A stretch of DNA of 35,808 nt from [Clostridium] symbiosum. GTDB lineage: Bacteria > Bacillota > Clostridia > Lachnospirales > Lachnospiraceae. A model generated the notes under the pieces. The model was not told where the DNA came from. It worked only from the letters and a program-made list of their open reading frames with translations, and ran no database searches. The position numbers and the translations under genes are program-made. Positions 6,923-35,808 of this stretch are shown here, piece by piece; position 1 is the first letter of the stretch; every line of letters starts with the position of its first letter. The stretch lies in assembly GCA_021769625.1 (NCBI GenBank), contig JAETSN010000047.1:1-35808 (forward strand). Direction: 5' to 3'.

Positions 6923-7804
6923 ATGGCAAAAAAACCGAGAGAGGACGAGCGGCCGGAAGAGGAGTTTGAAGACCGGGAATCGGAACGTCAAAGGTTAAAG
7001 GAAGAGAAAAAACGTTTAAAAGCGGAACAGAAGGCACAGAGAAAAGAGGCAAAACAGAAAGCCAGGGAAATCTCCGACCAGGAGGAAGAACTGGACGGCG
7101 AACCGGGAGGGCTTCCGGTATTTTTGGTAACGGCTTTTATCGTGGCGGTCTGGATCGCGATCCTCTGCGTCCTTGTGAAACTGGATGTGGGCGGTGTCGG
7201 GACGAACGTGTTAAAACCCCTGCTGAAGGATGTGCCGGTGGTCAATAAGATCCTTCCGAATGAACAGAGGCGTGACGAGGAGGAAGATGAATACAGCGGC
7301 TACAGCGATCTGGGAGATGCGGTGGCGCAGATCAGACAGCTTGAGCAGGAACTTCAGATGGCTCAGGAACAGAATCTGGCTTATGCAAACGAGATCAGTG
7401 AGTTGAAAGAGGAGAACAGCCGGCTCCAGAATTTTGAGAACGACCAGCTGGAGTTCGAAAGGTTAAAGAATGAGTTTTATGAAGAGGTCGTGTATGCGGA
7501 GAACGGCCCCGGTGTGGAAGAGTATCAGAAGTATTATGAGGCGATGGATCCGGCAACGGCGGAATATCTGTACCAGCAGACGATCCAGGAGACTTCCAGC
7601 AGCAGAGAGATCGAGGATTACGTTGCGGCCTATTCTTCCATGAAGGCGAAGGATGCGGCGGCGATCTTTGACACGATGACCAGCGATCTGGATCTTGTGG
7701 CGAAGATATTGGGGGCGATGTCCGCGGAGGACCGCGCCAAGATACTGGAGCAGATGAATGAGGAGAATGCGGCGCGGCTGACAAAGATGATGGATCCGGG
7801 GTGA
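6923..7804 (+). CDS. ylxF: MotE/YlxF-like single-pass membrane protein with MgtE N-domain-like tail
   Basis: The product has 293 residues. Residues 1-60 are extremely charged (E, K, R), one membrane segment lies at about residues 67-89 (LPVFLVTAFIVAVWIAILCV), a coiled coil follows at about 127-175, and a C-terminal helical domain (AKDAAAIFDTMTSDLDLVAK, ILGAMSAEDRAKILEQM) resembles the MgtE intracellular N-domain. That is the architecture of YlxF, found between fliJ and fliK in Bacillus, and of MotE. Its role is poorly defined; in some bacteria MotE supports stator or MotB function. The last codons lie at the edge of the structured repeat that starts about 10 bases after the stop. Confidence 0.87.
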   Translation: MAKKPREDERPEEEFEDRESERQRLKEEKKRLKAEQKAQRKEAKQKAREISDQEEELDGEPGGLPVFLVTAFIVAVWIAILCVLVKLDVGGVGTNVLKPLLKDVPVVNKILPNEQRRDEEEDEYSGYSDLGDAVAQIRQLEQELQMAQEQNLAYANEISELKEENSRLQNFENDQLEFERLKNEFYEEVVYAENGPGVEEYQKYYEAMDPATAEYLYQQTIQETSSSREIEDYVAAYSSMKAKDAAAIFDTMTSDLDLVAKILGAMSAEDRAKILEQMNEENAARLTKMMDPG

Positions 7805-7990
7805 TTTTTCCTGTTGATGAAGCGGACGTTCTGGCGGAAATATATTCCAACGGAACCCCGCTCTCGCTTCGGGGAAAACGTAGCAGTACTAAGCTCGAAA
7901 ATACCTCGCTAAGTACTGACGTTTTCCAGAGGTTCCTTTTGGAATATATTTCCGCCAGAACTGGTTGCTGGTAAAATGGAAAATCACCGG
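7796..7990. repeat. Imperfect inverted repeat flanking structured repeat copy 1
   Basis: CCGGGGTGATTTTTCC (7796-7811), which includes the motE stop codon, is nearly the reverse complement of GGAAAATCACCGG (7978-7990). It gives 4, 7 and 2 base pairs separated by small bulges. It could extend the copy 1 fold to about 195 bases or mark the borders of an inserted element. Chance cannot be excluded. Confidence 0.45.
7813..7961 (+). repeat. Structured palindromic repeat, copy 1 (motE-fliK gap)
   Basis: This fills much of the 334-base gene-free stretch 7805-8138. A long outer stem pairs 7828-7857 with 7931-7961 (23 consecutive pairs, a small bulge, then 6 more). Inside are a hairpin (CCCCG 7856-7860 with CGGGG 7870-7874, partly competing with other stems) and a central stem-loop: 7873-7881 with 7919-7927, then 7884-7890 with 7912-7918 after an AG bulge, then AGC 7892-7894 with GCT 7908-7910, capped by a 13-base loop containing AAATACCTC. 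The 5' motif GTTGATGAAGCGGACG (7813-7828) is shared with the second copy at 35668. No T-run follows, so it is not a plain terminator. Nature unknown: structured RNA, MITE-like element or RNA processing site. Confidence 0.85.
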
Positions 7991-8028: not shown

Positions 8029-8124
8029 AATTAATGGAAATTGTGTACTTTCAGGCATGGAGGCCGGGAGGGACAATTTTATAGAGTCGGGCGATGCCCG
8101 ATGAGAACATTGAAAATAGAAGAA

Positions 8125-8131
8125 AAGGAGG
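8125..8131 (+). promoter_or_regulatory. Ribosome binding site that decides the fliK start
   Basis: AAGGAGG lies seven bases before GTG 8139. It sits downstream of the in-frame ATG at 8094, which therefore is not the likely start. Confidence 0.75.
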
Positions 8132-8138
8132 TAAAAAC

Positions 8139-9536
8139 GTGACGAATATGCCCGGACTTGATAAGAGTTCTGGAATGCAGAACATCTTATCGGCAAAAGG
8201 AACAAAACCGGCGGGATCTTCCGACAGCGGGAGTTTCAACACGGTCCTGAAGCAGACCACACAGGCAGGCAGACAGGATGCGGGTCCTGAGAGGAAAGCG
8301 GAAGCGGCGAAAACTTCGGAGACAAAGAATAAGACCGAAGATGCTGCGGCGAAGGATAAGGTGAACGGGAACGGCAGGGCGGAAGAAAAGGCAAAGACAA
8401 AAGAGGCGGAAGCGAAGGAGCCGAAAACGCAGGAGACGGCGGAAGCGGAAGGAACGGAAGAGATCACGGATGATGCGGAAGTTCTGGAAAAGGCAGGCGG
8501 CGAAATGGTCGCGGCGCTGGCGGCGCAGATGGGGCTCAGTGAAGATGCCGTGCGTGCGGCTATGGATGAACTGGGAATGACAGATGTGTCATTGTTGGAT
8601 GCCAAAAACTTAAAGAGCCTGATGGTGGAACTCACGGAAGGCGCGGATGATATGTCTCTTCTGACGGATGAAGATTTTTACAGTTCCGTGACAGAGGCGC
8701 TTCATACGCTGGAAGATATCGCCGGAGAAGTACAGAAAGAAACTGGTATGAACCAGGAGGAGTTCAACGCGGCAGTGCTGGAAGCACAAAAGAGGCTTGC
8801 GGCGGCTAAGGTGCCTGAAGAAGTGCAGGAAGTATCTGCACAGGATCTGCAGGAAGGTGAAAATGCGGACGCTGAAGCAGTGAAGTTCAACATGCAGAAA
8901 CCGGAACTGACAGAGAACGCCAGAACAGAGACTGTGGCGGGGAAGGAAGCACCGAAGCAGGAGAACACCGGAAAAGACAGTGAGGGTCCGTTTATGGGAA
9001 ACAGCTATCAGGCACAGGACGTGGAACAGCATGCGCAGGCCTTAAGGGCGGCGGAGGCTGAAAAAGCATTTTCGATGACTGATACGCAGGAGATCATGGA
9101 CCAGATACTGGATTATATGAAAGTGTCGGTAAAGCCGGGACTGACAAATCTGGAAATGCAGCTTCATCCTGAATCACTGGGAACCTTACATATCCAGATA
9201 TCCAACAGAGAGGGTGCGGTGACCGCACAGTTTATCGCACAGAACGAATCCGTGAAGGCGGCGCTGGAAAGCCAGGTAATGGAACTGAAAGAAAACCTGG
9301 AACAGCAGGGCGTCAAAGTGGAAGCGGTGGAAGTGACGATCGCAGAGTATTCTCTTGACAGGAATCCGGACGGAAACGAGGCTTCGTCGGAGCAGGGAAA
9401 GCAGAGCAAAAGGAGCAGCAGGAACCTGAATCTGAGAGAACTGAATCTGGACGAGGAAGAAGATCTGACGGAGGAAGAGAGACTGACGGCAGAGATGATG
9501 CAGTCCTCAGGAAGTACAGTAAACTATATGGCGTAG
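8139..9536 (+). CDS. fliK: Flagellar hook-length control protein FliK
   Basis: FliK is the secreted ruler that sets hook length and triggers the FlhB substrate switch. With the GTG start at 8139 the product has 465 residues. It has a long low-complexity N-terminal half rich in A, E and K, a middle with several short helices, and the conserved C-terminal hook-length domain containing MQLHPESLGTLHIQIS and then FIAQNESVKAALESQV. It ends in a hydrophilic tail (SSEQGKQSKRSSRNLNLREL). The family identity comes from the C-terminal domain and the position between motE and flgD. ATG 8094 is in frame but lacks a ribosome binding site, while AAGGAGG precedes 8139. Confidence 0.92.
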   Translation: MTNMPGLDKSSGMQNILSAKGTKPAGSSDSGSFNTVLKQTTQAGRQDAGPERKAEAAKTSETKNKTEDAAAKDKVNGNGRAEEKAKTKEAEAKEPKTQETAEAEGTEEITDDAEVLEKAGGEMVAALAAQMGLSEDAVRAAMDELGMTDVSLLDAKNLKSLMVELTEGADDMSLLTDEDFYSSVTEALHTLEDIAGEVQKETGMNQEEFNAAVLEAQKRLAAAKVPEEVQEVSAQDLQEGENADAEAVKFNMQKPELTENARTETVAGKEAPKQENTGKDSEGPFMGNSYQAQDVEQHAQALRAAEAEKAFSMTDTQEIMDQILDYMKVSVKPGLTNLEMQLHPESLGTLHIQISNREGAVTAQFIAQNESVKAALESQVMELKENLEQQGVKVEAVEVTIAEYSLDRNPDGNEASSEQGKQSKRSSRNLNLRELNLDEEEDLTEEERLTAEMMQSSGSTVNYMA

Positions 9537-33875: not shown

Positions 33876-34901
33876 ATGGGAGCATTGGAGATCGTATTAC
33901 TGGCGGCAGGGGCGGTTATCTTTATAGCCAGTTTCTGTATTCCGGTAAAACAGGAAAAACTGAAGGAAGAGACAAGGAATCTTGCGGCGCAGGAAGTAAA
34001 AGATATGGTGGCGCAGGAACTTGAGCATGTACACGGGAAGCTGGAAGAACTTTCTGCGGAGGAGATGCAGCATCAGATCGAGAAGTCCGAACGCTCCATG
34101 GAACGAATCTCCAATGAAAAGATCATGGCGGTGAACGAGTATTCGGATACTGTGTTGGATGAGATCCACAAGAGCCATGAGGAAGTGGTCTTTCTTTACG
34201 ATATGCTGAAAAACAAAAAGGAGAGCCTTGCGGAGTCTTACGGGAAGGCCGATCAGGAGATCCAGGATCTGCTGCAGCGGGTAAAAGATTCCGAGATCAC
34301 GGTGCGGGAAAATCTGGCAGCGCTTGATAAGAAGCAGAAGTCATCAGCGGACGGCAGAGAGGAAGCCGGATCTGATGCCGGGACGGAGCAAAGAGGAAAC
34401 GGCGGGAACATACTTACCGGAATAGAAGCGTTGAGCAGGCAGGCATCCGCCGGAGAAAGAGCACAGGAGACGGGACATACAGTTTTGGCGGAAACAGAAG
34501 CTTCGGGAGAAGCGGAGGAGACAGCGGTATTTCAGCCCTTTGTTCCCGAAAAGATAGAGGCGGCGCCAAAGAAGAGGAATGCAGGAAAAGCGGCGAAAAA
34601 GCCGGGAGGAGAACCGGAAGAAAAAGGAGGCGGCGCCAAAGCGGACAGTGCCGCGGGAGAGGCGGACGCGGCCAGGGAGAAAGGCGCGGGAAGAAGATCC
34701 TCCGGAAGGAAAACATCCAAAGAAAAAGAAGATATGATGCCGGTATCATCGGATCCGGCGGAGAATAACGGAATAAACAGTAACGGAAGAATACTGGAGC
34801 TTCATCGGGCCGGAAAATCCAATATGGCGATCGCGAGAGAGCTGGGACTCGGAATCGGCGAGGTAAAGCTGGTGATAGATTTATATGAGGGGCTGCAATA
34901 A
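33876..34901 (+). CDS. SwrB-like single-pass coiled-coil membrane protein (DUF6115-type)
   Basis: The product (341 residues from ATG 33876) has an N-terminal membrane anchor (LEIVLLAAGAVIFIASFCIP, about residues 3-22) and a long charged coiled coil (about 25-160). A low-complexity, probably disordered part follows (about 165-295, rich in A, E, G, K). The C-terminal helix-turn-helix-like end is GRILELHRAGKSNMAIAREL followed by GLGIGEVKLVIDLYEGLQ. That architecture and the place near sigD resemble Bacillus SwrB, which promotes flagellar export apparatus activation; sequence homology is not shown. ATG 33858 is in frame and possible, but TTGGAG (33865-33870) better serves 33876. A stop/start overlap links it to the next gene. 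Confidence 0.8.
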   Translation: MGALEIVLLAAGAVIFIASFCIPVKQEKLKEETRNLAAQEVKDMVAQELEHVHGKLEELSAEEMQHQIEKSERSMERISNEKIMAVNEYSDTVLDEIHKSHEEVVFLYDMLKNKKESLAESYGKADQEIQDLLQRVKDSEITVRENLAALDKKQKSSADGREEAGSDAGTEQRGNGGNILTGIEALSRQASAGERAQETGHTVLAETEASGEAEETAVFQPFVPEKIEAAPKKRNAGKAAKKPGGEPEEKGGGAKADSAAGEADAAREKGAGRRSSGRKTSKEKEDMMPVSSDPAENNGINSNGRILELHRAGKSNMAIARELGLGIGEVKLVIDLYEGLQ

Positions 34902-35647
34902 TGAAACTTAGGTACTATTTGCGTGGGCTTGGAATCGGTATGCTGGTGGCGGCCCTCGTATTGATCCTGTCCGGAAACACGGGCGGAAAGATGAGCGATG
35001 ATGCGGTGAAGCGCCGGGCGGCAGAGCTTGGGATGGTGGAGAAGGATAAATCTGTGCTGGAGAATATCGGAAACGGAGTATCAGCCGAACAGTCCGGGGA
35101 TGCCGGGCACAGTGAAGATCCCGAAAATGCGGCGGCCGGGATGCAGGAGGATGCGGCTGCTGTTTTGGATGCGGAGAAAGAAGATCCGGATAATGCTGCC
35201 GATGCGGCGCCGGACAATATGGTGAGCGGTGAGGCCGATGCAGCGTCGGACAATGCGATGAACGGGGAAAGTGCTGCGGCATCGGGAGAAAAGGATGCCG
35301 GGACTGCGGCCGGAGCGGAAGGCGGCGCAGGGACAGCGCCTGCAGAGGAGGAACAGTCGCTGGCGGAGCAGATCGAACAGCGGGCCGGTGAAGTGGCAGA
35401 CAGGGCAAAGGAAGTGGCTGAAAATTCCGTGCCGGAGCAGATCGTCACCTTTGAGGTGTATAAGGGCGACACCTCGGTCTCTGTCTCAAGAAGGGCCAAA
35501 GAGGCGGGGCTGGTGGAATCCGCGGCGGATTTCGATGTGTTCCTCTGCCAGAACGGATATGATAAGCGGATATCGATCGGCACCTATGAGATCACGGTGG
35601 GGGCGACGGAGAGGGAGATCGCGGATATTGTGACGAAGAGCAGGTAG
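34901..35647 (+). CDS. Membrane-anchored protein with MltG/YceG LysM-like domain only
   Basis: The 248-residue protein has an N-terminal anchor (residues 7-25, LRGLGIGMLVAALVLILSG), a long A/D/E/G-rich linker (about residues 45-165), and a C-terminal domain of about 70 residues. In that domain VTFEVYKGDTSVSVSRRAKE is followed by AGLVESAADFDVFL and then ISIGTYEITVGATEREIADI. This pattern resembles the LysM-like N-terminal part of endolytic transglycosylase MltG. The catalytic domain that follows in true MltG is absent because the gene stops at 35647. It may act as a wall-binding or regulatory protein. ATG overlaps the previous stop by one base. Confidence 0.75.
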   Translation: MKLRYYLRGLGIGMLVAALVLILSGNTGGKMSDDAVKRRAAELGMVEKDKSVLENIGNGVSAEQSGDAGHSEDPENAAAGMQEDAAAVLDAEKEDPDNAADAAPDNMVSGEADAASDNAMNGESAAASGEKDAGTAAGAEGGAGTAPAEEEQSLAEQIEQRAGEVADRAKEVAENSVPEQIVTFEVYKGDTSVSVSRRAKEAGLVESAADFDVFLCQNGYDKRISIGTYEITVGATEREIADIVTKSR

Positions 35648-35667
35648 CAGTTCAGCCTACAGAGCTA

Positions 35668-35808
35668 GTTAATGACAGCGGACGCCGGGAGGAAAATCAA
35701 ATCCTCCGTCGCCACGCTTGCGCTCCGGGCTGCAACGTAGCGGTACTAGGCTCGTGAAATACCTCGCCAAGTGCCGACGTTGCTGCAGGGGCTCCTTGAG
35801 GATTTGAT
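35668..35808 (+). repeat. Structured palindromic repeat, copy 2 (cut by window end)
   Basis: It lies 20 bases after the last stop and aligns with copy 1 at 7813. It has the 5' motif GTTAATGACAGCGGACG (35668-35684) and an outer stem 35696-35706 with 35798-35808 (11 pairs, continuing past the window). The central stems are 35732-35738 with 35777-35783, 35741-35747 with 35770-35776, and GGC 35749-35751 with GCC 35766-35768, around a 14-base loop ending AAATACCTC. Stem sequences differ from copy 1 by paired changes. The short stretch 35648-35667 before it shows nothing else. There is no T-run. Confidence 0.85.

Follow-up and report, generated by a model that had tools for sequence, protein, structure and literature searches.

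A probable MITE-like repeat with IS66-type ends and a covarying hairpin core in [Clostridium] symbiosum and other Lachnospiraceae

Introduction

Several families of short repeats combine mobility with a hairpin fold. In the part of PMC2229807 drawn on here, ERIC (127 bp) and YPAL (about 168 bp) are small mobile repeats with transcripts that form long hairpins, ERIC is reported to alter the stability of the upstream mRNA in an orientation-dependent manner, and Correia/NEMIS is a MITE with an RNA stem-loop proposed as RNase III substrate. REP/REPIN sequences are presented in excerpts of PMC3733652 and PMC3116915 as dispersed palindromes with inverted neighbours. Among insertion sequences, ISDge4 of the ISBst12 group is given in a portion of PMC12898284 with the ends GTGACTACTCAGCA/GTAACTGCTCAGCA and the 8-letter repeat CCTCGATG.

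The repeat analyzed here resembles each of these systems in some respects and, as far as these partial descriptions extend, differs from all of them. It shares with ISBst12-group IS66 elements, represented by ISDge4 (PMC12898284), ends of the form GTAAC.GTTCAG and an 8-bp duplication, but it is far shorter, lacks a transposase gene and has a conserved structured core. Compared to the published parts on ERIC and YPAL, it differs in sequence, hosts and ends, and has a covarying three-way junction, as we read it, together with IS66-type ends. Correia/NEMIS would likewise be a MITE with an RNA stem-loop, but with other ends and other hosts as far as the cited part goes. The dispersed palindromes and inverted neighbours are reminiscent of REP/REPIN, whereas, set against the same excerpts, the repeat is much larger, has terminal repeats with 8-bp duplications and shows no tie to the number of Y1 transposases.

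The window, i.e., the whole stretch of 35,808 nucleotides analyzed, is an entire contig (G000:C16:1-35808) of the host genome, [Clostridium] symbiosum, here G000. An earlier note made from its sequence had pointed to two related elements with compensatory stem differences, matching no named RNA family.

Results

Copy 1 of the repeat occupies positions 7813..7961 (+), as assigned via core and arms (alignment A1), and lies between flagellar genes sharing one direction. Its long outer arm P1 pairs 7829..7850 (+) on the 5' side with 7939..7960 (+) on the 3' side, both sides being based on the fold and on compensating changes relative to the orthologue in G006, another genome of the genus. The conserved core, 7855..7933 (+), is matched by the covariance model R1 with 89.4 bits and contains P2 (7860..7867, +), a two-base-pair mini-hairpin within a conserved CGCTNNCGCT-like segment, and P3 (7869..7931, +), a core stem with an AG bulge, the inner triplet of which (7892-7894 / 7908-7910) closes an apical loop at 7895-7907. 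Neither a recognizable GTAACAGTTC end nor a target duplication was found for copy 1, the outer ends of which are decayed. Copy 2, at 35668..35808 (+), has lost its 3' part at the contig end; its core spans 35711..35792 (+), with an R1 match of 84.9 bits, and its left terminal repeat, GTAGCAGTTCAGCC at 35644..35657 (+), is one letter off the family end GTAACAGTTCAGCC. The TAG of this terminal repeat is also the stop codon of ORF 34901-35647, and a stop-supplying end was noted for the copy at locus L246 too.

Letter-by-letter reading of both copies bore out the compensatory stem differences. The triplet AGC/GCT of copy 1 is GGC/GCC in copy 2; the stem CAGTACT/AGTACTG becomes CGGTACT/AGTGCCG, with one A-T replaced by G-C and one T-A by T-G; and in the stem GAAAACGT/ACGTTTTC, which reads TGCAACGT/ACGTTGCT in copy 2, two A-T pairs become C-G and G-C. 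To call the outer arms wholly different was an overstatement, as related arm subfamilies emerge once many copies are compared. With its flanks included, copy 1 gives a far better fold than shuffled sequences (z -8.5, 0 of 200 shuffles as good). Taken by itself, copy 2 does not have a significant fold (z -1.76, equalled or bettered by 12 of 200 shuffles) because the contig end removes its 3' arm, the visible pairing in its outer arm being limited to ATCAAATCCTC (35696-35706) with GAGGATTTGAT (35798-35808). Of four more copies, three gave z values of -5.7, -9.5 and -8.2, and the fourth, L118, gave 0.01 for an interval that misses its 5' arm.

The repeat is abundant in the host genome, where a DNA search with copy 1 returned 42 matches, a figure that includes the query and its palindromic match to itself. 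R1, a model of the core built from 42 sequences with 81 positions and 25 pairs, matched there at least 146 times with E values no higher than 0.001, a minimum given that 150 of 1,678 candidates were scored; some contig-end matches may represent one copy twice. A stricter R1 search of the genus, scoring about 75 candidates per genome, found 24 copies in G001, 0 in G002, 12 in G003, 6 in G004, 2 in G005, 74 in G006, 3 in G007 and 4 in G008. In a sample of the host family, with 15 candidates scored per genome, 83 of 299 genomes and 82 of 298 genera had matches at E 1e-6 or better. The search for further copies by covariance model, as the earlier note had proposed, thus succeeded in the host and in many Lachnospiraceae genomes. 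The class-wide sample had matches in seven of 291 genomes, all seven from the host's family. Additionally, the core pattern occurred in at least 107 stretches of named genomes; among the 80 pattern matches listed, most were titled Lachnospiraceae or its genera and some just 'bacterium', Clostridia or Clostridiales, and R1 confirmed all but five of them, 75 in total, with the Deltaproteobacteria and Acidimicrobiaceae titles among the unmatched. Plasmids and phages, each searched with one copy as query, gave zero matches. Repeat copies occur at contig ends of the host assembly, copy 2 itself terminating the window contig.

Covariation was judged by pair counts against shuffled controls, which ignore relatedness, and controls with slid partners, which keep it. 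In the 25-pair core, 41 distinct copies of the host genome form standard pairs in 97.9% of cells, a share that falls to 87.5% after shuffling and does not exceed 46.1% when partners are slid, and 15 of the 25 pairs have double changes. A set of 91 copies from named loci paired in 93.2% of cells, with double changes in 23 of 27 pairs and a covariation score of 0.415 (0.148 shuffled, at most 0.087 slid), and a set of 23 distinct copies, drawn from the genus itself and from nine others, paired in 96.6%, with double changes in 22 of 27 pairs; these sets belong to the alignments A3-A6, which were fitted to R1, so that their counts lean to the core structure, with P2 outside R1. Alignment A1 omits L019 and L029 (insertion at P2) and window copy 2 (incomplete), A2 additionally L031:1773 (different apex), and matches of fewer than 100 model columns and one double view of a single L018 copy were dropped before the counts.

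P2 is invariant in nearly all copies of the host genome and covaries in other genera. The inner pairs of the conserved ACGCTNNCGCT-like segment on the 5' side lie outside R1, yet 99.4% and 100% of their cells are paired, with shifts from GC/CG to AT, TA or UA/UG in other genera. Because P2 pairs and covaries though left out of the model, we read the predicted fold as a three-way junction composed of the outer arm P1, the mini-hairpin P2, and the core stem P3 with its AG bulge and conserved apical loop. Longer hairpins can substitute P2 and the apex in other copies. No Rfam family fell on the repeat at gathering or permissive thresholds, in the window or in 16 loci with variants, so that the earlier statement that it matches no named RNA family holds for Rfam; three hits in the 16 loci, a riboswitch, a TwoAYGGAY RNA and a tRNA, all lay elsewhere. 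At L251 (899-1104) a cobalamin riboswitch (RF00174) begins about 70 nt after a full-length repeat copy.

The repeat is short, occurs in many copies and has no transposase gene inside. Young copies measure 173-226 bp, end in GTAACAGTTCAGCC...GGCTGAACTGTTAC and are flanked by 8-bp target duplications. Terminal inverted repeats of the GTAACAGTTCAGCC type were found on 15 distinct end-to-end elements (from 17 rows, two of which are alternative left ends of L017 and L246), many other copies having decayed or lost ends. Among these 15, all eight flank letters are duplicated in four, all from the host genome (L043, L246, L251, and L295), and seven of eight in three, all from one Acetatifactor MAG (L118, L130, and L155), while 0.74% of 272 control pairings reached seven letters. 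Mean flank identity at width 8 was 0.64 as compared to 0.26 in controls, with shoulders of 0.38 at width 7 and 0.41 at width 9 and control level elsewhere. Moreover, the end pattern with up to two mismatches occurred 165 times in the host genome and its reversed control 40 times. A 10-bp target duplication, considered on the basis of perfect 10-mers at 3 of 93 copies, was superseded by the 8-bp duplication with GTAAC ends. Target-derived outer arms were also rejected, since flank complementarity beyond the arms was strong in few copies, with a mean of 16.7 against 15.05 in controls. Core-less short remnants with family ends (L279 335-406, L280 403-442, L281 2615-2644, L283, and L296) resemble internal deletions across the palindrome.

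Occupied and empty sites can be compared within the genus. The site between ORF 6923-7804 and ORF 8094-9536 is filled in G000 and G006 and empty in G001, G004, G007 and G008, while G005 holds just a short arm-like sequence there (alignment leaving out G002 and G003). The L039 site is empty in all eight other genus genomes, and the L022 site in all five in which it could be spanned. A non-mobile regulatory RNA arisen at many sites would also account for the strong covariation and the conserved unpaired letters, but the target duplications, the empty orthologous sites and the range from 0 to 146 copies within one genus make such an origin very improbable. Together, these features leave us highly confident that the repeats are MITE-like non-autonomous mobile elements with ends of the IS66/ISBst12 type.

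The combination of a GTAAC end and an 8-bp duplication is one that we take to point to IS66, and the link to this family was therefore tested. In G006, locus L320 carries a decayed IS66 transposase gene (PF03050, E 4.6e-7), and 26 nt past its stop codon lies GAAGGCTGAACTGTTAC, a 17-letter end that recurs unchanged as the right end of copy L043. Protein relatives of this transposase occur in seven of 299 genomes of the family, at eight loci, and six of these have right ends CTGAACAGTAAC, GTGAACAGTAAC or CTGAACAGTTAC, L323 being ambiguous and L329 having none. One relative is a complete insertion sequence of 1,824 bp with GTAACTGTTCAGAACCCC, its two 18-letter ends differing at one position. A search of 41 genomes for PF03050 gave matches in 14 and none in the copy-rich G000, G001 and G024, nor in G010, G015 and G019; the host assembly, with 145 contigs and 96.61% completeness, is one in which a partner of the repeat could be missed. 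The autonomous IS66 partner has been lost, was left out of the assembly or resides elsewhere. Contig C126 carries two end motifs as a 2.7-kb inverted pair, which was rejected as the autonomous element, no transposase being seen on reading its six longest frames. When the IS66 fragment was compared with viral contigs, 10 stretches fitted a pattern and none was confirmed. On sequence grounds, an IS66-family transposase probably moved the repeats in trans.

Movement by a Y1 (RAYT/IS200) transposase, as of a REP/REPIN-type palindrome, would be in line with the dispersed hairpins and with close neighbours that are mostly inverted mutually (19/21). The number of Y1 genes (PF01797), however, does not follow copy number (13 genes and 2 copies in G005, no gene and 24 copies in G001), and target duplications with inverted ends suit a DDE transposase; we consider this the most improbable of the explanations weighed.

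Sites filled in both G006 and the host genome show what happened to the fold after insertion. The 41 G006 loci hold 44 copies, nine of them at sites also filled in the portion of G000 compared; the arms are similar at five of these sites and wholly different at four. The arm letters look site-specific in three pairs (window copy 1/L080, L018/L336, and L275/L342), and in L269/L330 and L033/L346 the arms come from common subfamilies. For the five similar-arm pairs the structure of one species was applied to the other, both ways, and of 116 changed pair cells 65 were doubly changed and still paired, 21 were G-U and 30 were broken (10 of them A-C); L336/L018 had nine double changes and one or two breaks. 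Changes in the core may stem from conversion by other copies, an explanation that suits the site-specific arms less well. Different-arm elements in the same orthologous slot (L345/L029, L337/L262, L363/L260, and L366/L276) are the product of recurrent insertion, replacement or conversion.

These comparisons bear on the claim that the two window copies reveal selection on folding, which gains from the covariation in many copies and from compensation in situ at orthologous sites, although the long arms may instead reflect hairpin-templated repair. According to this rival, the mobile element is the same and its pairing functionless: a single-stranded DNA hairpin would have one arm copied from the other by quasi-palindrome or template-switch repair, and the core would be homogenized by conversion. 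It accounts for the replacement of the outer half of both arms together in L342/L275, the four orthologous slots with different-arm elements, and the exchange of apex modules between copies. Furthermore, repair would leave no G-U excess in the arms, and none was seen, the G-U : A-C cells of the arms numbering 34:32 and 47:82. In the cores of the host genome they number 26:5 and 40:3, a G-U excess that speaks for RNA, though many of these cells are concentrated in few columns, and in other sets the excess is small or absent (49:36 and 6:6). Features that are one-sided, namely the CGCTNNCGCT-like segment and the AG bulge, nevertheless persist across genera, the two-base-pair P2 covaries, and the repeats of the host genome show a sense-strand bias, all of which repair would not predict, and we regard it as a serious but rather unlikely alternative.

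The sense-strand bias is pronounced in G000, where 55 copies between co-directional genes are sense and 9 antisense (p 3.5e-9), which speaks for RNA. This count classified 80 of 99 copies, those left out overlapping a called gene or not being flanked on both sides by called genes within 500 and 800 bp. Since the terminal ends are mutually inverted, they do not explain this polarity. The repeats of this genome begin a median 19 nt after the upstream stop codon. Elsewhere, the sense:antisense ratio was 20:13 in G006 (not significant), 26:13 in six other genera (p 0.053) and 26:33 in a mixed set; a cruder ORF caller applied to all sets had given 44 '++' vs 34 '--', which the later orientation counts superseded. 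Of 21 cases in which two copies are at most 450 bp apart, 19 are convergent and none is divergent (e.g., L016, L121, L139, L171, L262, L392, L400, and L410). Convergent genes were rejected as the cause: of 22 pairs viewed, 20 had genes on both sides, arranged as 10 '--', 4 '++', 3 '-+' and 3 '+-'.

The core might instead be chiefly a portable intrinsic terminator with an A-tract, a GC-rich stem and a T-tract, and AAAAACGC...GCGTTTTT do surround P3 in many copies of the host genome. Elsewhere, as in window copy 2 and L262, these A/T tracts are swapped for paired GC-rich letters, the sole terminator-like match near copy 1 sits within the 3' arm (one found, 0.5 expected), and copy 1 is flanked by flagellar genes that are co-directional; a terminator as the chief role is thus improbable.

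Discussion

Taken all together, the results are best explained by an IS66-ended mobile element that is kept as an RNA hairpin, an account to which we assign a probability of roughly 0.55. According to this account, an IS66-type transposase would move the repeats in trans, and a sense copy landing just behind a stop codon would be co-transcribed with the upstream gene. The resulting hairpin might then act as an intercistronic or 3'-UTR element setting the fate of the upstream mRNA end through stability, processing or partial termination; the closest behavior on record is that reported for ERIC, with its orientation-dependent effect on upstream mRNA, and for YPAL (PMC2229807). Whether the transcribed hairpin has such a role is a matter of about even odds, and we put RNA function above hairpin-templated repair, though not by much. 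A bolder and, in our view, doubtful extension is that one RNA module, with its three-way junction and conserved apical motif, has spread behind tens to more than 100 genes per genome in many gut Lachnospiraceae genera and might form a post-transcriptional regulon read by an RNA-binding protein or a ribonuclease, its fold kept by compensation while the arm letters turn over fast.

The repeat had been singled out as the best candidate in the window for something undescribed, which proved half right. A clear relation to IS/MITE elements, named in the earlier note itself as a reason to abandon the idea, did emerge in the IS66/ISBst12-type ends and in the 8-bp duplications of related copies. On the other hand, no paper on the repeat was found: searches of titles and the starts of abstracts, with subscription papers mostly outside their scope, returned no description of it, nor did searches of text for its end or core letters. 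The kind of element, a MITE, is already known; what makes this variant worth naming is that a repeat found family-wide has IS66-type ends and a covarying junction, and that its fold is kept while the arms turn over.

In practice, assemblies and annotations warrant care, as copies lie at contig ends and an end of the repeat can provide the stop codon of a gene, as for ORF 34901-35647. With its many orthologous copies, the repeat offers natural replicates in which to ask what preserves long hairpins, selection or hairpin-templated repair. If the account given here is true, Rfam would gain a new RNA family, and in a major family of gut bacteria a mobile element would deliver ready-made RNA control sites to the ends of genes.
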